21,229 nt of DNA from positions 1 through 21,229 of IMG/VR virus record IMGVR_UViG_3300025276_000256; one strand, written 5' to 3'. Positions 9,215-21,229 of the stretch are shown here, piece after piece. A program made the position numbers and the translations under genes. The stretch is from a virus. The notes beneath the pieces are model-generated. The model saw only the letters and a program-made list of their open reading frames with translations. It ran no database searches and was not told the origin of the DNA. Within the stretch, counting starts at the first letter, position 1, and every line of letters begins with the position of its first letter.

Positions 9215-12200
9215 ATGGCAGAGTTTAAAAATGTTTTTATAAAATCTAAAATGAACAAGGATCTTGATGATCGCTTGTTACCACAGGGTGAATATAGAGA
9301 CGCATTAAATATACAGGTCAGTAAATCAGAGTCTTCGGACGTTGGTGCGCTAGAAAATGTTTTAGGTAATAGTAGTTTAATTAATTTTAAAGAAATTATT
9401 CCAGGTAAACCTGACTTGGTTTGTATTGGCTATTTAGTTTCTGAAGTTAATTCCTGTGTATTTTTCTTTTTAACAAACAACACCATAATTGGCAATGCAA
9501 CTGGCGGATATAATAATGACCCGTTGACAGAGCATTATATAGTAAGATCAATAATATCACAAGGGTCGGCTACGCAAAGTGATATATTAGTTGAAGGTAA
9601 GTTTTTGAACTTTTGGGAAGGAGCTCCTATATACGGGGTTAATTTGTTAGAAGAGTTATTGTTTTGGACTGACAACAGAAACCAACCTAGAAAAATAAAT
9701 GTAGATTCAGCACTAAGTGATATTAGTTATTATGTTATAGAAGATACTATCAGTGTAGCGAAGTACATGCCTTACACGGCTCCAATACTTTGGCAAGAAA
9801 TAAATAACTCTATGGCGGCTGACTTTAATCCTCCTTTTACAGGCGATGGAGTTGGCGAGTATCAAACTACAATGAAAGACGTTGTTAGTGAGAAATATCC
9901 TGACGGAAGCCCTGTCGCGGCTGGTGAATTTCAGCCTTACTATGATGACACATATAGAGGGGATCCTGATTACTTAGAAGATAAGTTTGTAAGATTTAGC
10001 TATAGGTTTAAATTTGATGACGGAGAATACTCTGTATTTGCACCGTTTACTCAAGAATGTTTTATACCTAAGCAAGACGGTTACTTTCTTTTTCCAGATC
10101 AAAACAGCCTAGCAACTAGTGCTCAATTAGACAACAACGACATGTCAGCTTCGTACAGGAGTACTATAGTTGACTTCATGGAGAACAAGGTAAATGAGTT
10201 AACTCTTTTAATAGAAATGCCTAAGTGCGGAGACCCGGCGCTACCTCCAACCAGCCTTAATAATGTAGGAAGTCAATTTAAAATAACCGAAGTAGAGATA
10301 CTTTACAAAGAATCAGACGGTGCTGCTGTTATGGTTGTTGATACTATTAAGATAGAAGCTAACCCATTTACAAAGGTAACTACTAACACGTTATCATATA
10401 TCTATTCTGGTACAAAGCCTTTTAGAACGTTACCAGAAGATCAACTTACTAGAGTGTATGATAAAATACCTGTCAAGGCACTTGGTCAAGAAATAATAAG
10501 TAATAGAGTTGTTTATAGTAACTTCCAAACAAAACACACTCCACCTACAACCTTAAACTACAATGTAGGAACTCAACCAAAAACAACTTTTAATGTTGCC
10601 AATGCTAACCCAACCACATGGACAACTAGCATTGTTGAATACCCTAATCACACTTTAAAACAAAATAGAAACTATCAAGCCGGTTTTGTATTATCTGATA
10701 GATTTGGTAGAACAACTTCAACTTTGTTATCAAACACAGGGGATGGGGCTGTTGGGAGTGTTAGTAAACTATCTACTGTATATTCGCCTTACAACGAGGG
10801 AAATGGTGTTGTAGATATAGGAACATGGCCAGGTGACTCACTTTTTGTTCAAGTAAACGAAACAATAAACGAAATACCTGTAGCGCCGACACTATACCCT
10901 GGAACATATATAGGAGATCCAACTTTACCTAACTATAATCCGTTAGGTTTTGAAACATGGAAGGTGGTTGTTAAGCAACAAGAGCAAGATTATTACAATG
11001 TATATCTGCCTGGTATACTAGCTTCATATCCTACATTAGAAGATCCTGGATCTCCTGTTTACAAGGAACTAGGTTTAACTTCTCATATGGTTTTACTTAA
11101 TGACAATATAAACAAAGTACCTAGAGACCTATCTGAAGTAGGTCCTGATCAACAGCAGTTTAGAAGTTCAGTTCAATTATTCGGTAGGGTTCAAAATACA
11201 GCTACAACAGCAGCTATTAATCTAACTAACATTGGATTAGTAAACGAGCAATACTATCCTTCAAGATTTTCAGATACAGTTTCTACTATACAAGATGAGG
11301 TTACTTTGTTTAACCTTACAGCACCTATTGATTCAGCTGATATAGACGATTTTAAAGGCGCTTTTTACGAAGCAGAATCAAACCCGAGTATAGGTAGAAT
11401 AAGTACAACTAATCAAATAGGTCAAACAAATCCATTAGCTCCTACGTCACCACCAAATCCTTTGTACTCAATACAAAACCTAGCCGTATATGAGACAGAG
11501 CCTGTAGAATCAAAACTAGATATATACTGGGAGACAAGTACGAGTGGTACTATAGAAGATTTGAACGCTCAAGTTATATTAACAGGTGGGCAAACTATAT
11601 TTGAAATTGTAAACTTTGATTGGTATCTTTCAGAGTACTTTGGTGTACAAACTGCAGCCACATGGGATCCAACTGTTCAAGGATTTCCAGAGCCAGGTAG
11701 TAACGGGTTTTCACCTGGGCCAGTAGCTGAATTTAAAAACGGGTATTCAGGAAGATTTAGATCTGTCATAGGTGGAAAAGACGCTGGTACAGGTTCAGAA
11801 GATGGTGCTTTTTATTTAAAAGATTTTAGCAATACCGCTATAGCAGAAGTCACTATCATTGATTTCGTAGTCACTGATGGCAACAACGTTGATGTCACCA
11901 ATGATTTTGCTCTTCTAAAAATAAACGGACTCACTAATCCTGCTGGTGGGGTTGGATACTATACAAACTATAGAAATCAACCTTCAATATCTCCAGGTGC
12001 TGATTATGATTCATTTATATTAGTCAATAAAAAACATAGAGTGTATTTACCAAGCAATGGATTAGCTAATGATTTTATTGTTACAATAAAATTTACTGAT
12101 GATAATAATCCAAACACACCACAACCGGCAACATTTGTTTTTCCAGGTACTAATCAAATTAGCAATACTTCTTTAGAAGATCTTCCGACAATACATGTTG

Positions 12201-14098
12201 GAGGTGAACAATTAATAGGTAGTGCACCGTTACCTACGTGGGGGCAAATTTCGCAGCCTATAGAAAACTTTTTAGATCCAGCACCGAGTCCTCCATCTGC
12301 AGGCTTATTCTATGAATATGGTTACGAAGAAAACATTACTGATTTTGGTTTGGTTAAATTCTACGGAATGAATGGATCTAATAGCAACAACAACGGCGGT
12401 ATCGGTGTATTGTATCCTAATCAACAAACGCTTCAATGGTCTATAGAGTCTCAACAACAGCCGTTTGTAGGTGACAATGAACCTTCTAATGTTGATATTT
12501 TCGAAATAAACGAAATCACTGGTGTGTTACAAGAAAAAATTCGTGGAGCTGGTATTGGGTTATACGCGGTAAAAGTGAGATTAATATCAGATGATGGTTC
12601 TCCGGAAGCGTTTTTTACTATTAAAATAACTATAGGTAGAAAAACAGCAAATGGCTCTTTTAGCAACAACCTTACAGAATATCCATTATACTACGACAAC
12701 AGCTACGTTCTTAGTTTACACAGGACACCTGGCGACGCGTTTGATAGCTTGCCAGGTGGTGGCGGTGGTAGTATAAAAGATACTTTTAAAAGAATATTTC
12801 CAGCAGTGTCTGGTCTTGCAACAATACCCGCGGATCTAAATGATAACTTCACTAACGCTAGTAACGGTAGCTATAACTACGGTAATGGTAATGAAGACTT
12901 TCAAAAGCTTACTACAAATCAGCCAAATGAAGATGATAATGAAGGGCCGCTAACTCAAGGTACGGGCTATATAGATATAGAAATGCTTATACAAGGTATT
13001 GAAACTTCTCCTTTTATGGATGGCTTTCAAACTTCAGAGATATCTTGGGCTATAGAATATAGAAAAATTATTGGCGGTTTTGTACAAGACTGGGAAGCGG
13101 CTACAGATATAGAAGGCAATGTACTCTCTTGGAATAATCTTTTAGATGCAACCACTACTACACCTGTAACAAACCCACAACAGTCTGGTGCTAGATTAGA
13201 TGGAGATGTACCTAGTGGAGGATTCGCAATATATAGTACCTCAACACATTCATCAGCTCATAACCCTCCTGGCGGCAGTGAAGATACTAGGCAAATATAC
13301 GGAGCTGCGTATCCTACAACTCTAGTGGGAGCACCTAGCTTAAACGATAGTCCGGCTAATTTTGTACAGTATAGAGCACAACAAAAGGCAAGCGCATCAA
13401 GCAACCGAACCCCCGAAATGTATTTAGGTAGATGGGTTGCTGTAGGTGAAAGTCCTATTTATGGAACAACTCCTTGTTTTGGTGAGTATAGAATTGTTAT
13501 ACAAAACATCGGTGGTCAATGTGATACTTGCCAAAGTAAAATAGTAGGAAGTCAAGGGAGTCAAGCCTCAAACCCAAACTCGTTATCTGGTAATATAGCT
13601 GGGAACCTGAGAATAGGAGATTTTTACTACGACTTAAAACCACCACAAGCTCCTAGATCTTATGCTTACGTAGTTGACACTACTATTCAGGCTGATCAAG
13701 CTACCGCTCTTGATAATCCTATGAACAACGTTGTACCCATGTACGCTGAAGAAGGTGTTAATAGATACGTTAGTCAATTTTATACAGACCCTGGTTTAAC
13801 GCAACTGGTAACAAATGCTACAACTCCTGGATGGAGTGATGCTAGTGTAGGCTATGTATCTTATACAGCCGCAGAAAGTACTGACTCTGCAAATTCTAAT
13901 GTGCCTTATAGCGCATATACTGTACCCGCAAATCAACCATTAGATGAAAGAGTAGGACCAGTTCTTGCTGCTGAAAATGCAGCTGTAGAAGGTGGTAATT
14001 CTCAGTCTGAACAATGGCAAAGATTATGGGCGTGTGAAATAACACCTACTACTGGTAGGAAAACAGAAAGATCATCCGTAGGTAGAACTACAACTTAA
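9215..14098 (+). CDS. Large tail stabilization / muzzle-type protein
   Basis: A 1627-residue protein with no signal peptide. The N-terminus carries the signature KDLDDRLLPQGEYRDALNIQ (residues 15-34) and GALENVLGN, typical of proteins annotated as stabilization proteins (P22 gp10-like) in crAss-like and marine Bacteroidota phages. A blade-like repeat LFWTDNRNQPRKINV follows at 149-163. Further conserved parts are YYNVYLPGIL, NINKVPRDLSEVGPDQQQF near 629-650 and YETEPVESKLDIYWETSTSG at 759-778. After about residue 800 the protein is a long beta-rich, Asn/Gly/Thr/Pro-rich region, probably several Ig- or cadherin-like domains, with a Gly5-Ser linker at 1181-1186 and a CxxC pair at C1436/C1439. 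It probably forms the tail hub below the neck. The C-terminal domains have no assignable function; host-surface contact is an inference. Confidence 0.78.
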   Translation: MAEFKNVFIKSKMNKDLDDRLLPQGEYRDALNIQVSKSESSDVGALENVLGNSSLINFKEIIPGKPDLVCIGYLVSEVNSCVFFFLTNNTIIGNATGGYNNDPLTEHYIVRSIISQGSATQSDILVEGKFLNFWEGAPIYGVNLLEELLFWTDNRNQPRKINVDSALSDISYYVIEDTISVAKYMPYTAPILWQEINNSMAADFNPPFTGDGVGEYQTTMKDVVSEKYPDGSPVAAGEFQPYYDDTYRGDPDYLEDKFVRFSYRFKFDDGEYSVFAPFTQECFIPKQDGYFLFPDQNSLATSAQLDNNDMSASYRSTIVDFMENKVNELTLLIEMPKCGDPALPPTSLNNVGSQFKITEVEILYKESDGAAVMVVDTIKIEANPFTKVTTNTLSYIYSGTKPFRTLPEDQLTRVYDKIPVKALGQEIISNRVVYSNFQTKHTPPTTLNYNVGTQPKTTFNVANANPTTWTTSIVEYPNHTLKQNRNYQAGFVLSDRFGRTTSTLLSNTGDGAVGSVSKLSTVYSPYNEGNGVVDIGTWPGDSLFVQVNETINEIPVAPTLYPGTYIGDPTLPNYNPLGFETWKVVVKQQEQDYYNVYLPGILASYPTLEDPGSPVYKELGLTSHMVLLNDNINKVPRDLSEVGPDQQQFRSSVQLFGRVQNTATTAAINLTNIGLVNEQYYPSRFSDTVSTIQDEVTLFNLTAPIDSADIDDFKGAFYEAESNPSIGRISTTNQIGQTNPLAPTSPPNPLYSIQNLAVYETEPVESKLDIYWETSTSGTIEDLNAQVILTGGQTIFEIVNFDWYLSEYFGVQTAATWDPTVQGFPEPGSNGFSPGPVAEFKNGYSGRFRSVIGGKDAGTGSEDGAFYLKDFSNTAIAEVTIIDFVVTDGNNVDVTNDFALLKINGLTNPAGGVGYYTNYRNQPSISPGADYDSFILVNKKHRVYLPSNGLANDFIVTIKFTDDNNPNTPQPATFVFPGTNQISNTSLEDLPTIHVGGEQLIGSAPLPTWGQISQPIENFLDPAPSPPSAGLFYEYGYEENITDFGLVKFYGMNGSNSNNNGGIGVLYPNQQTLQWSIESQQQPFVGDNEPSNVDIFEINEITGVLQEKIRGAGIGLYAVKVRLISDDGSPEAFFTIKITIGRKTANGSFSNNLTEYPLYYDNSYVLSLHRTPGDAFDSLPGGGGGSIKDTFKRIFPAVSGLATIPADLNDNFTNASNGSYNYGNGNEDFQKLTTNQPNEDDNEGPLTQGTGYIDIEMLIQGIETSPFMDGFQTSEISWAIEYRKIIGGFVQDWEAATDIEGNVLSWNNLLDATTTTPVTNPQQSGARLDGDVPSGGFAIYSTSTHSSAHNPPGGSEDTRQIYGAAYPTTLVGAPSLNDSPANFVQYRAQQKASASSNRTPEMYLGRWVAVGESPIYGTTPCFGEYRIVIQNIGGQCDTCQSKIVGSQGSQASNPNSLSGNIAGNLRIGDFYYDLKPPQAPRSYAYVVDTTIQADQATALDNPMNNVVPMYAEEGVNRYVSQFYTDPGLTQLVTNATTPGWSDASVGYVSYTAAESTDSANSNVPYSAYTVPANQPLDERVGPVLAAENAAVEGGNSQSEQWQRLWACEITPTTGRKTERSSVGRTTT

Positions 14099-14133: not shown

Positions 14134-15681
14134 ATGGCGTTAATAGAAGTAAAATATTTCAACTCTTTTACCCTAAGGAAGACTATTAAAAATGTAAATC
14201 CTAATCCAAGCAATATTAAATGGTTTGGATCAAGAGGTATACCTAGCGTTATAGGTGGCTATGGAAGTTATGGTATACCAGACGAAAGCACTTTAAACTG
14301 GGCAATAGAAGAATCAAGAATTAGAGGCGGGTATAATAACACGTCTATTTCTTTTGGGGCTAAAGCTTATTTAGTAGAGGACGAGCCTCAAGGAACTGTT
14401 AGAGGCAACGCTATGATATACTCTGGTATATTTAATTCTAGAACAGGCATTAATCAGACTAATCAGTTCTCAGTAGCAAACGACATAACAAAAGCAACTG
14501 ACCCAGCTAACGGTAGCATACAAAGGCTATATGCTGAAGACAGCAATCTTATTATATTTTCTGAGAAAAAAGTAAGTAGAGCTTTAATAGATAAGGACGC
14601 AATATATACCGCTGAAGGAAGTGCCGTGCCTATTACACAGCTTAATTTAGTTATAGGTCAAATAACTCCTTACGCTGGTAATTTCGGTATAGCTAAAAAT
14701 CCAGAAAGCTTTGCTGTGTATGGGTATAGAAAATACTTTGTAGACAAGAACATGAATGCTGTTTTAAGACTATCTAGAGACGGTATAACAGAAATTTCAA
14801 ACTATGGTATGATTGATTGGTTTAGAGACAATCTAAGTACTGTAGATTCAGTTAGCTTTGGACCAGGTAAAATACTTGGTGGATGGGATATATACACAAA
14901 GCAGTTTACAGTTTCTTTACAAAAGCCAGTCTCTTTAGGAACTACAACACTAGGTGAGTATAACACGCTTCAATTTGACGAAGCGGTATTAGGCTGGCCC
15001 TCGTTCTACAGCTTTAAGCCGACTTGGATGTTTAGCTTAGGCGGTAGATTTTATAGCGTATCAAAAGGAAGTGGCGATACTGATATTCTTTGGTTGCACA
15101 ATGATCCTACATCTGATAGAGCAGAATTCTACAATGAAAAGTACAAATCAAACATAACATTTTTAGTTAATCCAGACGTAAGTAGAAGCAAGGTTTTTAA
15201 AACCGTAAGCTACGAAGGTAGCAATGGTTGGGAAGTTACATCTTTTGTGTCTGATATAACAGGTGTTGATAGCATAGAAAACACAGCCTCTAACGTGCCT
15301 TTATGGCTACTACCACCACAGACTAGAGATACAACTAATGGTGTATATAGTTACTATGAAGGAGAATATATAATAGATCCTAGAACGGCTGCAACTACAT
15401 TCAATACAGCTGTTTATAGAACAGATTACGTAAGTGTATTTGGAACTGATGATCCACCTTACAACAGGTTTTACGCTGGGTTTACAAGAAAAGAAAATAA
15501 ATACTACGCTAATCTAGTAAATGATTCCGTAGCAACGGGAGGCGAGGTTAGGTTTGGTGACCAAATGACAGGCATAAAAGGTTACTACTGTACAGTGGTA
15601 ATAGAAAACGATACTTACACTAATCCTGGAGGAGCAAAAGAATTATTTGCTGTTAACTCAAACTTTAGCGTAAGCAGTTAA
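14134..15681 (+). CDS. Tail hub protein with propeller-type conserved core
   Basis: A 515-residue beta-rich protein. The core includes NWAIEESRIRGGYNN (W56), AMIYSGIFNSRTGINQTNQF, then DPANGSIQRLYAEDSNLIIF, and GIAKNPESFAVYGYRKYF at 185-202 followed by LRLSRDGITEISNYGMIDWF. I associate these segments with stabilization/muzzle-type tail proteins of Bacteroidota phages, where related segments can sit in the same chain as the N-terminal signature now found in the 9215 gene. Here they are separate: this gene is in another reading frame, and an in-frame TAA at 14125 just before its ATG rules out a simple frameshift fusion. The C-terminal third is beta-rich (IKGYYCTVVIENDTY) and may form the outer face. 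It probably assembles with the 1627-residue protein in the tail hub. Confidence 0.77.
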   Translation: MALIEVKYFNSFTLRKTIKNVNPNPSNIKWFGSRGIPSVIGGYGSYGIPDESTLNWAIEESRIRGGYNNTSISFGAKAYLVEDEPQGTVRGNAMIYSGIFNSRTGINQTNQFSVANDITKATDPANGSIQRLYAEDSNLIIFSEKKVSRALIDKDAIYTAEGSAVPITQLNLVIGQITPYAGNFGIAKNPESFAVYGYRKYFVDKNMNAVLRLSRDGITEISNYGMIDWFRDNLSTVDSVSFGPGKILGGWDIYTKQFTVSLQKPVSLGTTTLGEYNTLQFDEAVLGWPSFYSFKPTWMFSLGGRFYSVSKGSGDTDILWLHNDPTSDRAEFYNEKYKSNITFLVNPDVSRSKVFKTVSYEGSNGWEVTSFVSDITGVDSIENTASNVPLWLLPPQTRDTTNGVYSYYEGEYIIDPRTAATTFNTAVYRTDYVSVFGTDDPPYNRFYAGFTRKENKYYANLVNDSVATGGEVRFGDQMTGIKGYYCTVVIENDTYTNPGGAKELFAVNSNFSVSS

Positions 15682-15691
15682 ATTAAATCAA

Positions 15692-16096
15692 ATGGAATTA
15701 CAAGTTAGAAAACTAAAGGAAACTGATTGGGACACTTTAGTGAGTTGGTGGAAATGGTGGAGATGGACAGTTATGCCTAAAGGTTTTTTACCGGACAACG
15801 GTACTGGTGGCTTAATGGTATACAAAGAAGATACACCTATCGTCGCTGGATTTTTATATTTTACAAACTCAGATGGCGTACTACTAGAGTGGATAGTGTC
15901 TAACCCAGAATATAGAGAGGAAGACCGTAAACAAGCTTTAGAATTATTAATATCTACAGCTGAAGAAACTTGCAGATTAGCAGGTAAAAAATACATGTTT
16001 AGTATAGGTAGAAATAAACACCTAATACAAACACATAAGAAACTAGGATGGACTGTAGACGAAAGCTCATCATATGAATTAATAAAAAATATATAA
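15692..16096 (+). CDS. GNAT-like N-acetyltransferase fold protein
   Basis: A 134-residue protein. The order of elements fits the GNAT fold: strand MELQVRKL, a first helix, beta hairpin GGLMVYKEDTPIVAGFLYF, strand LLEWIVSNPEYR, helix DRKQALELLISTAEETCRLA, strand YMFSI and the ending HLIQTHKKLGWTVD, where GNATs usually have a Y-x-K-x-GF segment. The PEYR start of motif A is kept, but the acetyl-CoA pyrophosphate loop is poor: the usual RxxGxG/A glycines are replaced (R75-E-E-D-R-K). Residues 13-25 (WDTLVSWWKWWRW) hold six tryptophans. The gene sits 10 bp after the tail hub gene and 3 bp before an internal virion gene. It may acetylate a host or virion protein, or be an inactive structural relative. 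I recall similar small proteins in the same place in marine Bacteroidota phages. Confidence 0.72.
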   Translation: MELQVRKLKETDWDTLVSWWKWWRWTVMPKGFLPDNGTGGLMVYKEDTPIVAGFLYFTNSDGVLLEWIVSNPEYREEDRKQALELLISTAEETCRLAGKKYMFSIGRNKHLIQTHKKLGWTVDESSSYELIKNI

Positions 16097-16099
16097 ATT

Positions 16100-16834
16100 A
16101 TGGCAGCAGTAACCGCAATGGTAGTAGGAGCAGCAGCAGTAGCAGTTGGTGGAGCAATTCAATCTGGTAAAGAGCATAAGAATATGCGTAGAGCTAGAGG
16201 TGAAAAAGCTATGGCCGCTTCTAAAGTTCGGTCACTTCAAAACAGTAGACAGACTATAACCAACCCGTACGCAGGTGTTACGTCTTTAGCTAACTTAGCA
16301 TCGGACTTGTCTGGTCAAATGTCTAATCCTTATGCTAGTCTAGGCGTGGCTACTCAAGCCGCGGAAATACAAATGGAGCAAGCTGATATAGCTTTAGCTA
16401 ATTCACTAGACGCAATGATGTCTACAGGAGCAAGTGCTGGTGGTGCAACTGCTTTAGCTCAAGCCGCTTTAAGAAGTAAGAAAGGAGTAGCCGCTGGTAT
16501 AGAACAACAAGAGGCTCAAAACGAAAAGCTTAAGGCACAAGGTGAGCAAAACCTACAACAAAGACAAACACAAGAACAACAACGATTACAGCAAATAGCT
16601 ATATCTGAGGGATCAAAAGAGCAACAAGCTCAAGCAGCTGGAAACATATTTATGTTTAATGCTGATGAAGATAGAAAGAACGCTGATATATCCTACAATA
16701 TAGCTAAAGAAACTGGAGCCGCGCAGAGGCAAGCGCAAGCTAGCTCTAATAGAGATGCTGCTACTGCAGGTATATTTACTGGTATAGGTAGTATAGCTAG
16801 TGGAGCTCTCTCTGGAGGAGTATTTGAATCATAA
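16100..16834 (+). CDS. Small internal virion / ejection protein with hydrophobic ends
   Basis: A 244-residue protein. The N-terminus is a hydrophobic, Ala/Val/Gly-rich segment (AVTAMVVGAAAVAVGGAI, about residues 3-20) that could insert into a membrane. The C-terminus is a second Gly-rich hydrophobic stretch (AGIFTGIGSIASGALSGG). Between them are helical segments rich in Ala and Gln, with two NPYA motifs (NPYAGVTSLANLASDLSG and NPYASLGVATQAAEIQMEQA) and a coiled-coil-like stretch (about 130-180, EQQEAQNEKLKAQGEQNLQQ). The pattern is like that of T7 gp14-type or P22 gp7-type ejection proteins, which are stored in the head or neck and form part of the DNA conduit across the cell envelope. This is inference from composition, hydrophobic ends and gene order. 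Confidence 0.7.
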   Translation: MAAVTAMVVGAAAVAVGGAIQSGKEHKNMRRARGEKAMAASKVRSLQNSRQTITNPYAGVTSLANLASDLSGQMSNPYASLGVATQAAEIQMEQADIALANSLDAMMSTGASAGGATALAQAALRSKKGVAAGIEQQEAQNEKLKAQGEQNLQQRQTQEQQRLQQIAISEGSKEQQAQAAGNIFMFNADEDRKNADISYNIAKETGAAQRQAQASSNRDAATAGIFTGIGSIASGALSGGVFES

Positions 16835-16848
16835 TTAAAAAATAAAAC

Positions 16849-18543
16849 ATGGGATATACTATACCGTCTGGGGATTATTCACTACCACCACTACAAGTAA
16901 ATGTAGGGGCTGAGCTAGGTAAAAGCTTTGGGTCTGCTCTTGCGAATATGGGAGCTAGAAAAGAACAAAAAAGAAAAGAAGCAGCGCAACTTTTAAAAGA
17001 TCAAAATGCTACAAAAAATACTATAGCAATTACACAAGCTGAAGCACAGCGAAAGTTTGGTTCTGATTTGCAGAAAAAAGGAGTTTCACAGATTCTTATA
17101 CAACAATATAGCGACAGAGTTAAGCAGAAAGGAGATGCAGCTATGAAGGCACAGTTAGATATGGCTTTTGGTCAAGAGATGACTGATGAGGAAAGAATGC
17201 AGAATGCTAAAACAGTGGCAGACGTAACAAGTTACACCGAGAATACATTAACGCAAATTGGAGCGTTTGGCTCTGATATTGATTTAGTTAATGACACTGA
17301 TTATGTCGTATACGGTGATGATACAAACGGTGAGCAGTTTGCAAACACTCTTGGCCTGAATGCCTTTAAAGGAAATATGATTGCTTCAGACGCGATTATA
17401 AATGGTAATCTAACTGGAGAAGGTAATATAAACGATGTTGGAAGTACAGTATCAATACCTGTTGATAGTCCATTTTGGAATACGGTGAACTCAGAAGGTG
17501 GTGCTACTGTTAAGGACCAAGTTGAAATAGGTTTAGATGCAGAGCATGGGCGCATAACACAACAAGAAATTGATGGTAAGCAGTATTACACCTTTACTAC
17601 AGATATAAACTTAAACAACTATGAAAGCGCTGGTGGAGTAGACTTAGTTCAAAAAAAGCTAAAAACTTTAGAAAGCGATAAAACATTTCAAGAGACGAAT
17701 CTAATGGACGAGACAGGTGCATGGAGTGAAACGTATATTGACAAAAATCCTATAACTACTTCTAATTTTGAAGTAGATGCAGATAACAAACCAACAGGTT
17801 ATAAGGTAACAACAAGCTATAATATTTTAGATGTTAATGCGATGATTGCCTCAAAGCCATATCAAGACGGGATAAAAGCAGAATACGATGCTAAGTTTAA
17901 CTCAAGCGCTAGCCCTCCTATATCTAGATTTATACAGCAAAACTACTTAAGGGAAATAGGATCTTCATTAGATATGAATAGTGAAGAATGGAAAGGTATG
18001 ACTCCTGACGCTCGAAGAACCGCTGTTATGTCTGGCATTACTGAAAAGCTTTGGGAAAATTATTTTCCTCCGTCTAAAAACAATCAAGGTGATGGAGATT
18101 CGCAGGAGCAAATGGTATTAGGTAAGGATACACCTATTGGAATACTAACTCAAGCAAAATCAATGACCAATCCTCTTACCAACCTTAAGTACAGAGAAGG
18201 TGATACTATATACTTAATGAAAAACCAAAGAACTCGTATAGATGAGGAAAATACCGATAATGGTAATGACGGTACAAGTATATATCAATTAATAAAAGGT
18301 AAGTACAATAAAGCGTTTCAAGCTGCAGAAGGACTAGTGGCTGCTAAAAACACCGCGGGTCTTAAAGCAATTAAAAATTCAATGACAGGAGTACCTTTAA
18401 CACTTCCAGACGGTAGAGGTAAATATGAGGTTGATGCATCGGGTAATATTAGACTTGTTGCTGGTACTGATCCTAGGCTTTACAAGATTGTAAGTGATGA
18501 AATCTTCCTTGAAGCTTTAAACGATGCAATTAAGTCTGAATAA
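16849..18543 (+). CDS. Mid-size internal virion protein, unknown family
   Basis: A 564-residue protein. Residues about 20-130 are charged and helical (ARKEQKRKEAAQLLKDQN; SDRVKQKGDAAMKAQLDMAF), probably coiled coil. Residues about 145-320 look beta-rich and acidic (DLVNDTDYVVYGDD; KQYYTFTTDINLNNYES; NKPTGYKVTTSYNI). The rest is mixed, with a helical C-terminus (YKIVSDEIFLEALNDAIKSE). It has no signal peptide or obvious enzyme motif. It lies between the small hydrophobic-ended protein and the very large protein, so it would be the middle member of an internal-protein trio, comparable in position to T7 gp15. That comparison is by position only. A minor tail protein is a possible alternative. 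Confidence 0.65.
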   Translation: MGYTIPSGDYSLPPLQVNVGAELGKSFGSALANMGARKEQKRKEAAQLLKDQNATKNTIAITQAEAQRKFGSDLQKKGVSQILIQQYSDRVKQKGDAAMKAQLDMAFGQEMTDEERMQNAKTVADVTSYTENTLTQIGAFGSDIDLVNDTDYVVYGDDTNGEQFANTLGLNAFKGNMIASDAIINGNLTGEGNINDVGSTVSIPVDSPFWNTVNSEGGATVKDQVEIGLDAEHGRITQQEIDGKQYYTFTTDINLNNYESAGGVDLVQKKLKTLESDKTFQETNLMDETGAWSETYIDKNPITTSNFEVDADNKPTGYKVTTSYNILDVNAMIASKPYQDGIKAEYDAKFNSSASPPISRFIQQNYLREIGSSLDMNSEEWKGMTPDARRTAVMSGITEKLWENYFPPSKNNQGDGDSQEQMVLGKDTPIGILTQAKSMTNPLTNLKYREGDTIYLMKNQRTRIDEENTDNGNDGTSIYQLIKGKYNKAFQAAEGLVAAKNTAGLKAIKNSMTGVPLTLPDGRGKYEVDASGNIRLVAGTDPRLYKIVSDEIFLEALNDAIKSE

Positions 18544-18558
18544 ATTAAATATAATTAT

Positions 18559-21229
18559 ATGTACACATACAACGGAGAAAATTACACTTTAGATGAAATA
18601 AAAACAATCTTAGGTGTTGAAGAAATAACTGACGCTATTATGTCTCAGTATGGTATAACACTGGCTGGAGAAGAAGCACAAGAGATTGTAGATGCTACTA
18701 AACCAGATAGTGCTTTTAGTCAGGTAATAGATGGAAAGTCACCTGAGGATTTTCAACAAGTTGCCGCAACGGAGGATGTACCTGCGGTAACTGTAACAGA
18801 GGACGCATCCAAGCCGCTAGAGGAGATGCCTACTTCAGAATTGGAATTACAATTGGAAGAAACTTCTTTGGCTATTGCAGAGTTGAACAAAGAACTCGAT
18901 GATAAAGGTCGTTATAAGCAAAGTAATAGACCACTAACATATAGATTAAGTAAGTTAAAATCAAAAAAAGAAAGAGAAGCTACTCAGTTACAGGTTAGAT
19001 ACACTAATGCTGATAAAATAGATTTTAGTAATGCAGAATTTGTTACTAATCAACTTGAAGATAGAGTTGTTACAGAAATGAGAGCTGAGCACGGGTATCC
19101 TTACTTGAACGTAGAGGCTACAGGTGCTGGTAATGAAATTGTAATTAAAAATTACTTAGGTACTGGTAAGAATATAAATGTAAAACTAGATGGCAGTGAA
19201 GAGTCTAAGAAAGTTTTTAAAGATCTTAATGATTATGATAAAGCTTTAACAGACAGTTCTAGAGTAGAGTTAACTATGGAAAGCTCTTTAAACAGATCAT
19301 TTAAAAACAACGACATAGTACCCTTAAACAAGGTAATAAAATCTTCAGGTTACGAAATACAGCAAGTAAAAACGCCTGGAGAAGAAGTTGTAGTTGTACC
19401 TGATGCAAAATACCCTATTACTGATTATACTCCTGCTACATATGAATACTCTTTAACTAAAGATGGCGTAACTATTGCTTCTGATATAAATGGTATTAGT
19501 GATATATTAAAAGGAGATAAAAAACTAGAAGGAGCAATTGTTCAGGAAGCTTATGATTATCAAGAGCTCACGCTAGAAAAACGAGCTCAAGCTTTTGATG
19601 AACAAAAAGAAATAATAACAAAAGATCCAACAACGACTGTTGATTATTACGAAGATGGTTCTTTTGAAAAAGATATTATTAAAGCAATTCAAGACAAAGG
19701 ATTAGACTTGAGCCCTGAAGAGATTCAAACAGTGCAAGATTATTTTAAATCTATAAATGCACGTGTTGGTGGAGTAGAAGTTCAAGAAGGTTCTGTCATG
19801 GAGCAATTTTCTTCACTGCTAAAAGTCGCGGATAAAATGGGGTTTGTTGACGAAGGATCTAGCAAAAACTATATAAGCGATGAGAAAAAAGTAGAGATAT
19901 ATAGAAACCTATCTGGCTTACCATCAGAAATAATTGAAAAAATAAAAGCTAGTGGTTTTTTACCAACAGTTAAGAAAAAGGTTGCTGAAATAGCATATCA
20001 AAAAACTTTAGAAAAATCAGAAACTATATTTGAGGATCTTATAAAAGCAGAAGGCGATCAAGAAACAATACAGCTTGCTCAAAGATTTATAGGTGCTGAA
20101 AGAAGTGATGTTGTTAAATCTCTTGAAACAAGGGCAGATAAAGTAGTAGAACAGAGAGAAAAACAAGCTACTATATTCTCTGCACAAGCAAAGAACATAA
20201 TAGAAAACGTGGCTCCTGAAGGTGCTAAAATTGGCTTAATGGCAGCTGGTGGATCTAGTCAAATAGGTTTACAGATAGATAGAGAGTTAACTAAAGAAGA
20301 GCAAAAGCAGTTTGATAAGGCCGCTGATATGTTGATGGCTTTGCAATATAGTATAGATCTTTCACAAAGCGATTACGTTAAAACAATTAACAATATTCAA
20401 AGAGATTTTCAAATATATGCTGCTGAAGACAAAGGTATAGATCAAGGACTTTTTAATACATCATCAAAAGAATATGGATTAGACAATCTATTAGTTAAAG
20501 ATATTAACGATAGTTTTGCTGGTTTTTTACTATCTGTACCTACATTACTGGATAGTGACTGGGCAAACCTTGAGCAACAAAAAATAAATCGTAAAAACAG
20601 TTACTATGAAACGGCTAGAGCTTACGACGATGGAGATTTTGGTAGGTATGTTCTTAGAACAACCGCTCAGCAGTCTGCTAACATAGTCGTTGCTATAGCA
20701 ACAGGTGGGGCCGGTAGTGCTTTAAACTTAACTAAAATGGGTACTCAATTAGCTATTGGTACTGTATTTGGAGTAAGCAGTGGTACTCAGACGTTTAGAG
20801 ATTTATCAAGCCAAAATACTATATATGACCTAGCTAAGCTTAGAGGAGAACAAGCCACACGTGCTAAAACAGAAGGCATTATAGGTGACTATGAGTATAC
20901 TCAAATAATGCAAGACGTAAATAACACTCTTGCTATGGGTAGGTTATCTAACACTCAAGTTATGGGCGCATCGTTCACTAATGGTGTAATAGAAGGCTCT
21001 GTTATGACGTTGATTGGGCAAGCACCAAACACATTAAAACTTTTAAAAAACTTTAAGACTCCTACTCAGATAGCTGAGATTTCAAAGAACCTATTCAGCA
21101 AGTATGGTAGAGTTGGGCAACTATATAACTACATAGGGAAGCCACTTGTTACGAGACCACTTGGTGAAGTTGTAGAAGAGGGTGCCGTGTATGGTCTTCA
21201 ACAATACATTACAGAGTACGGTATATTAG
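18559..21229 (+). CDS. Very large internal virion / ejection protein (3' truncated)
   Basis: An open frame of 890 codons that continues past the right edge. The start is the first ATG after the upstream stop, behind an A/T-only leader. The N-terminus (MYTYNGENYTLDEIKTILGV) is followed by an acidic low-complexity linker (about 30-110), then a long helical region (about 340-620). Hydrophobic Gly/Ala segments appear at about 651-664 (FAGFLLSVPTLL), 706-722 (SANIVVAIATGGAG) and 730-745 (QLAIGTVFGVSSG). The last visible part, GEVVEEGAVYGLQQYITEYG at 869-888, resembles a recurring E-x-Q helix in large phage internal proteins. It probably is the largest ejected protein, comparable in position to T7 gp16 or crAss-like cargo proteins. 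Any lytic transglycosylase, protease or RNA polymerase domain would lie beyond the window. Confidence 0.72.
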   Translation, partial: MYTYNGENYTLDEIKTILGVEEITDAIMSQYGITLAGEEAQEIVDATKPDSAFSQVIDGKSPEDFQQVAATEDVPAVTVTEDASKPLEEMPTSELELQLEETSLAIAELNKELDDKGRYKQSNRPLTYRLSKLKSKKEREATQLQVRYTNADKIDFSNAEFVTNQLEDRVVTEMRAEHGYPYLNVEATGAGNEIVIKNYLGTGKNINVKLDGSEESKKVFKDLNDYDKALTDSSRVELTMESSLNRSFKNNDIVPLNKVIKSSGYEIQQVKTPGEEVVVVPDAKYPITDYTPATYEYSLTKDGVTIASDINGISDILKGDKKLEGAIVQEAYDYQELTLEKRAQAFDEQKEIITKDPTTTVDYYEDGSFEKDIIKAIQDKGLDLSPEEIQTVQDYFKSINARVGGVEVQEGSVMEQFSSLLKVADKMGFVDEGSSKNYISDEKKVEIYRNLSGLPSEIIEKIKASGFLPTVKKKVAEIAYQKTLEKSETIFEDLIKAEGDQETIQLAQRFIGAERSDVVKSLETRADKVVEQREKQATIFSAQAKNIIENVAPEGAKIGLMAAGGSSQIGLQIDRELTKEEQKQFDKAADMLMALQYSIDLSQSDYVKTINNIQRDFQIYAAEDKGIDQGLFNTSSKEYGLDNLLVKDINDSFAGFLLSVPTLLDSDWANLEQQKINRKNSYYETARAYDDGDFGRYVLRTTAQQSANIVVAIATGGAGSALNLTKMGTQLAIGTVFGVSSGTQTFRDLSSQNTIYDLAKLRGEQATRAKTEGIIGDYEYTQIMQDVNNTLAMGRLSNTQVMGASFTNGVIEGSVMTLIGQAPNTLKLLKNFKTPTQIAEISKNLFSKYGRVGQLYNYIGKPLVTRPLGEVVEEGAVYGLQQYITEYGIL

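Follow-up and report, generated by a model that had tools for sequence, protein, structure and literature searches.

The window, by which we mean the whole 21,229-base IMG/VR virus record analyzed here, carries a small gene on its plus strand (positions 15692 to 16096; ATG start, 134 amino acids [aa]) that is predicted to encode a GNAT-fold protein lacking the acyl-CoA P-loop consensus. The gene starts 10 nucleotides (nt) past the stop codon of its upstream neighbor, and its own stop codon lies 3 nt ahead of the next ATG. The upstream neighbor (14134 to 15681, plus strand) encodes a portion of a muzzle (nozzle) protein of the crAss type, as judged from its matches to PF25729 (crAss_MUZ_C; E 4.8e-9) and phrog_14478 (virion structural protein). 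Downstream, also on the plus strand, are genes for a 244-aa, Ala/Gly-rich, gp14-like candidate ejection protein (16100 to 16834), named for its position and cluster membership; a 564-aa protein at the gp15 position (16849 to 18543); and a protein of at least 890 aa at the gp16 position (18559 to 21228), which runs off the window. The last two were placed solely by order and size. Because matches to PHROGs and Pfam were sparse, we infer the gp14, gp15, and gp16 labels mainly from order, size, and composition. With the first of these labels accepted, the GNAT gene lies between a nozzle gene and a gp14-like gene.

Codons 13 to 25 (15728 to 15766, plus strand), which cover helix α1 and the turn that follows it, hold a cluster of Trp residues at positions 13, 19, 20, 22, 23, and 25; further Trp residues are found at positions 67 and 120. 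When the protein's own composition was shuffled, at least six Trp within any 13-residue stretch arose in 8 of 20,000 shuffles. The position of the GNAT pyrophosphate loop, codons 75 to 82 (15914 to 15937, plus strand), falls between the strand of residues 62 to 70 and the start of the helix of residues 79 to 96 and reads R-E-E-D-R-K-Q-A. Residues 75 to 80 are R-E-E-D-R-K where GNATs have Q/R-x-x-G-x-G/A.

The gene is real and under purifying selection, given dN/dS values of 0.06 to 0.18 between the window gene and eight chosen relatives, matches in 80 phage records, and relatives encoded by at least 575 IMG/VR stretches. The dN/dS range, from these eight chosen comparisons, rules out a pseudogene. 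An antisense open reading frame (ORF) of 102 aa (15688 to 15996, minus strand) overlaps most of the gene.

In PHROGs, the protein belongs to phrog_17252 (E 6.5e-35; residues 4 to 133 aligned to profile positions 2 to 133 of 134), a family listed there with unknown function whose named members come mostly from flavobacterial phages. Members from phages of Cellulophaga, Flavobacterium (elemo), Tenacibaculum (Gundel_1), and Maribacter (Panino) are 33 to 38% identical to the window protein and resemble it in length and gene surroundings. The 80 phage records found by tblastn, some of them GenBank/RefSeq pairs, match at least 80% of the query at less than 60% identity each (68 Flavobacterium, 8 Cellulophaga, 2 Tenacibaculum, 1 Maribacter, and 1 unclassified). 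From the IMG/VR stretches, 80 were kept for comparison. Scans of the window protein against Pfam and NCBIfam gave no match; among 33 family members scanned against Pfam, 9 touched Acetyltransf_1 (best E 0.013). The most distant relative found (L141, 5947 to 6336) is 28% identical to the window protein.

The protein is predicted to adopt a GNAT fold

The first-pass annotation of the window had proposed a GNAT-like fold from the sequence, and structure prediction agrees. An AlphaFold2 model built with 71 family sequences has a pLDDT of 95.7 and a pTM of 0.90. Its strands are β1 (residues 3 to 7), β2 (40 to 45), β3 (48 to 57), β4 (62 to 70), β5 (101 to 105), and a final strand (129 to 133), and its helices are α1 (10 to 22), a short helix (34 to 37), α3 (79 to 96), and α4 (109 to 117). 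By prediction, this arrangement follows the GNAT order β1-α1-α2-β2-β3-β4-α3-β5-α4-β6-β7.

Fold searches with the model point in the same direction. In VIA-align, the best solved match is RimI (5isv), with a Z score of 15.6 and a root mean square deviation of 2.3 over 128 aligned residues, so that the RimI-type protein N-acetyltransferases match the window protein over the whole domain. Judged by title or by sister entries, all but one of the best 50 VIA-align matches (Z 15.6 to 13.9) represent acetyltransferases or complexes that contain them, the exception being the condensation domain of Ebony (6dym). RimI and Ard1, both protein N-acetyltransferases, are among the best-scoring solved folds when ties within 1 Z unit are counted, and Foldseek also returned GNATs. 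At the level of sequence, a 33-member profile reached GNATs in the PDB weakly, with YqjY (1mk4) as its best match (E 0.0061). RecA chains returned by phmmer were passed over, as no single stretch passes alone. Together, the model and the fold searches support the assignment of a GNAT fold to the window protein.

The P-loop consensus is lost across the family, and a Trp face and cleft residues are retained

The P-loop consensus of GNATs is Gln/Arg-x-x-Gly-x-Gly/Ala (PMC4964394). We aligned 99 unique members of the family, comprising the window protein, the IMG/VR loci, and isolates with duplicates collapsed; five sequences were left out by length, including L141, and one because of ambiguous residues. 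The replacement of the loop glycines noted earlier in the window protein proved to be family-wide: [QR]xxGx[GA] is found in residues 66 to 90 of none of the 99 members and anywhere in the protein in one (L079, in another part), and Gly is absent from residues 75 to 82 in 90. RimI, by contrast, keeps the motif in all 79 control sequences. A lone degenerate variant is therefore ruled out, since no relative in the alignment has a normal loop.

Six positions, D12, P34, G40, T58, R79, and L111, are invariant in all 99 members. E66, in strand β4, is Glu in 88 members, Asp in 10, and Asn in 1 and could be a retained general base, and N108 is Asn in 79. The position seven residues past N108, which we take to be that of the usual GNAT Tyr acid, is occupied by His in 78 members, Tyr in 15, Phe in 4, and Leu in 2. 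Among characterized GNATs, a Glu base is reported for 36% and a Tyr acid for 62% (PMC4964394). The family as a whole has thus lost the loop consensus, and some residues of the cleft are firmly conserved.

The six Trp residues at positions 13 to 25 that the first-pass annotation singled out are present in the window protein, and most of the cluster is conserved. W19 and W20 are each kept in 98 of the 99 members, W23 in 96, and W25 in 90, and position 13 holds Trp in 66, Tyr in 32, and Phe in 1. W22, however, is variable, with Trp in just 12 members. Exactly six Trp in the cluster region is a rarity (2 of 99); most members have five (74 of 99). Elsewhere in the family, one member (L111, 6001 to 6429) has a tandem duplication of the segment SIGRNKHL at the β5-α4 turn.

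The place next to ejection-type genes is conserved

The location of the gene between tail and ejection-type genes, to which attention had been drawn in the window, is borne out by the annotation of the neighbors and by 93 unique IMG/VR loci. In 91 of these, an ORF on the same strand, 150 aa or longer, ends no more than 60 nt upstream. All 88 loci that reach far enough downstream have a same-strand ORF of 182 to 575 aa as the next gene, no more than 12 nt away. At the upper end of this range (L026, 5401 to 7125), the gp14-like neighbor has grown to 575 aa and contains degenerate repeats with a high content of Gly, Asn, Tyr, and Ala.

Of 106 gp14-like neighbors, 105 fall in one phmmer single-linkage cluster, although part of this linkage may be compositional, as the proteins are Ala/Gly-rich; the neighbor of L141 lies outside. 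For phi46:3, phi18:3, phi13:2, Gundel_1, and phi19:3, the protein clustered was the product of the nearest structural gene of the gp14-like kind. The gp14-like proteins of phi18:3, elemo, and ctfjg026 match phrog_13764 (virion structural protein); that of L066 reaches this family with an E value of only 0.091, and that of L001 matches another, phrog_6121. In a Pfam scan of five gp14-like proteins (the window's and those of four relatives), T7_gp14 (PF24072) was matched by the elemo protein only, below the cutoff (E 0.02) but over nearly its whole length, and not by the 244-aa protein of the window. A tblastn search of phage records with the latter found nothing.

In six of eight annotated records, the GNAT gene is on the same strand as its structural neighbors. 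In the other two, Gundel_1 (L031, 9001 to 9411) and phi19:3 (L032, 9040 to 9411), it is on the opposite strand, inverted within an unchanged interval between the flanking structural genes. Small opposite-strand genes separate the GNAT gene from the gp14-like gene in phi46:3, phi18:3, and phi13:2, the last of which also has a tRNA there. Given these inverted and intervening genes, position is kept more strictly than cotranscription.

The muzzle gene itself varies in structure. It is seemingly split in the window into two ORFs (9215 to 14098 and 14134 to 15681; 1,627 and 515 aa), and tblastn positions suggest that close relatives, among them L001 and L037, share this split. In elemoE_10-3D, both parts match within a single ORF (3570 to 7982 of L030). 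The ring-joining domain and propeller of the crAss001 muzzle resemble those of the T7 nozzle (PMC10172136). In crAss001, no small gene directly follows the muzzle gene, gp44, and the muzzle-GNAT arrangement is therefore not universal.

Comparison with T7 gp13

The order in the window, with a muzzle/nozzle gene followed by genes for the GNAT protein and for proteins of 244, 564, and at least 890 aa, resembles that of T7 genes 12 (nozzle), 13 (138 aa), 14 (196 aa), 15 (747 aa), and 16 (1,318 aa; lengths from record coordinates). T7 gp13 thus shares with the window protein both its place, after the nozzle gene and before gp14, gp15, and gp16, and a similar length. Likewise, nine T7-type records (T7, P-SSP7, Syn5, P60, CRP-171, HTVC011P, Lo5R7ANS, S42-C7, and P-SSP10) have a gene whose annotation reads tail tubular protein B, tail tube B, or tail protein immediately before the gp13 relative. 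According to PMC5592923, T7 gp13 is of unknown function, and other proteins require it for their incorporation into the virion. It matches PF11090 ("probable scaffold protein Gp13") and phrog_308.

A model of T7 gp13, predicted from 19 sequences with a pLDDT of 93.9, has a GNAT fold. Among solved structures, it is matched best by the GNAT domain of PAT (Z 12.1), and acetyltransferases are named in most of the titles listed. T7 gp13 and the window protein therefore have the same GNAT topology, both by prediction; in the literature searched, we found no outright statement that T7 gp13 has this fold. The two differ in that T7 gp13 lacks the Trp cluster and formally matches the loop pattern (RLSGKA). 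The pattern is absent from the whole protein in 14 of 19 T7-type gp13 sequences and in 14 of 15 sequences of a broader set.

Sequence comparisons did not establish direct homology. Profile comparisons by hhalign gave E values of 0.057 against the 19 T7-type sequences and 0.0013 against the 15 broader ones, and the RimI control was nearly as good. When scores were set against a null of 60 column shuffles per comparison, the window family scored 25.6 over 119 columns against broad gp13 (shuffle maximum 20.7) and 23.0 over 54 columns against RimI (shuffle maximum 19.1); against T7-type gp13 alone, the score of 16.4 was inside the null (maximum 17.4). Broad gp13 scored 26.1 against RimI. A Pfam scan of 33 members of the window family (E up to 1) listed 11 families without PF11090, and phrog_308 is not listed for the window protein (E up to 0.01) or for two relatives (E up to 1). 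The window model has 994 matches in BFVD, and the absence of T7 gp13 from the best 50 of them is uninformative on kinship. The window family and gp13 have the same predicted fold and the same place, and special kinship or common descent is unproven because the profiles are barely nearer to gp13 than to RimI.

A possible role in virion assembly

We lean, with moderate confidence, toward a morphogenetic role for the window protein in short-tailed phages, as a GNAT-fold, gp13-like protein that would act on ejection proteins, would not be packaged, and is probably not an enzyme. It would be made late, together with the nozzle and ejection proteins, and would bind an ejection protein soon after the latter's synthesis, with the gp14-like protein encoded just downstream as the likeliest partner. 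The Trp-rich side of α1 may form the binding surface together with what remains of the acyl-CoA cleft around R79. In GNATs, the segment between β1 and β2 is variable and supplies acceptor sites (PMC4964394), in keeping with a Trp face that binds a partner. The protein would then help its partner, in a chaperone-like manner, into head or core assembly and leave before the virion is complete. Three roles had been suggested in the first-pass annotation. An assembly-linked role fits best, by analogy with T7 gp13, whereas a virion-associated role finds little support in the proteomic notes for phi18:3 discussed below and a host-modifying enzyme is little favored.

Several observations count against a gp13-like factor. 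Profile scores hardly single out gp13 over RimI. The gene is on the opposite strand in Gundel_1 and phi19:3 and is separated from the gp14-like gene in phi46:3, phi18:3, and phi13:2. A possible base at E66, CoA binding by GNATs with atypical P-loops, and the formal loop match of T7 gp13 also point away from it, as do the labels "probable virion-associated" and "internal virion protein" given to gp13 and the lack of a tblastn or T7_gp14 match for the window's gp14-like neighbor.

The main rival is an active enzyme with an atypical loop. The protein would be an acyltransferase whose substrate, acetylated in the course of assembly, is a structural or ejection protein of the phage, with E66 as the base and R79 holding the CoA phosphates. 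The invariance of R79, the acidic residue at position 66 in 98 of 99 members, and the frequent N108 favor such an enzyme, as do the fold matches to RimI and Ard1 and the precedents of MtAAC(2')-Ic and HpPseH, which bind CoA despite atypical P-loops (PMC4964394). Against it are the Gly-free loop of most members, the loss of the usual Tyr acid from 84 of 99, and the weak reach of the profile into GNAT sequences of the PDB. On balance, we regard catalysis as unlikely.

The window protein might instead belong to the virion as a minor component that is packaged, or ejected, along with the core. In phi18:3, six genes near the GNAT gene (gp113, gp114, gp115, gp120, gp121, and gp123) carry tandem mass spectrometry (MS/MS) notes that identify their products as virion proteins. 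In the T7 record, gene 13 bears the label "internal virion protein," which phrog_308 also has, and a legend calls T7 gp13 "probable virion-associated" (PMC5592923). The GNAT gene of phi18:3, gp116, however, is annotated as a hypothetical protein with no MS/MS note. This is weak evidence, since four other genes there, gp117 to gp119 and gp122, lack one too. In the T7-like phage phiPsa17, the gp13 homolog is not among the virion proteins that the text of PMC4517105 lists as detected, whereas the gp14, gp15, and gp16 homologs are listed. We consider a place in the virion decidedly improbable.

A late host-modifying enzyme that merely happens to be located in the structural region is the least credible reading, and we give it very little weight: the opposite-strand genes of Gundel_1 and phi19:3 mean that the protein need not be coexpressed with structural proteins, and a possible part in regulating host metabolism has been suggested for the GNATs of RCA phages (PMC6918029), but a free-standing effector would not need a place by ejection-type genes that is kept in all 88 readable unique loci, next to neighbors of which 105 of the 106 tested share one gp14-like cluster, and that recurs for GNAT genes in distant podovirus groups.

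If the protein is a gp13-like assembly factor, as we favor, it bears on the working mode of gp13-type factors. Should a GNAT scaffold devoid of the CoA loop serve distant podoviruses, the Trp face and the R79 cleft would be a concrete candidate binding site. Such a role would also call for caution in annotating genes of this kind as metabolic acetyltransferases.

Relation to GNAT proteins of other podoviruses

GNAT genes at comparable places are known from other short-tailed phages. In SIO1, the GNAT gene (phrog_1249, acetyltransferase) directly follows a gene annotated as "tail appendage," much as in the window. For the Cobavirus group, internal virion proteins B and D, a GNAT, and tubular proteins are listed in succession, and the SIO1 GNAT has been suggested to correspond to T7 gp13 "based on the GNAT domain" (PMC6775973). 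Like the window family, the SIO1 protein has no match to [QR]xxGx[GA]; unlike the window protein, which Pfam does not recognize, it scores above the Acetyltransf_1 cutoff.

In P22, gene 14 (DUF2824; L172, 8911 to 9366) is flanked by the tail needle gene 26 and the ejection gene 7, a place akin to that of T7 gp13, and phiSG1 (L255, 1417 to 1887) has the same arrangement. Profile searches for a GNAT relationship of P22 gp14 gave nothing, and the single supporting match is a Foldseek hit between a DUF2824 protein of Aeromonas phage 4_4572 and the T7 gp13 model (TM score 0.54; E 9.8e-5). The connection of P22 gp14 to the broader GNAT idea is thus a lead, not a result.

These parallels suggest a broader idea, which we put forward as speculative and rather doubtful. 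GNAT-fold proteins that have largely given up acyl transfer might have been overlooked as a general nonvirion partner for the trio of ejection proteins in podoviruses. T7 gp13, the SIO1 GNAT, the window family, and possibly P22 gp14, encoded between the tail needle and gp7, would then be variants of a single assembly device, arisen independently or very long ago, in which the former acyl-CoA/acceptor cleft would keep hold of the first ejection protein, which is hydrophobic, until it is packaged.
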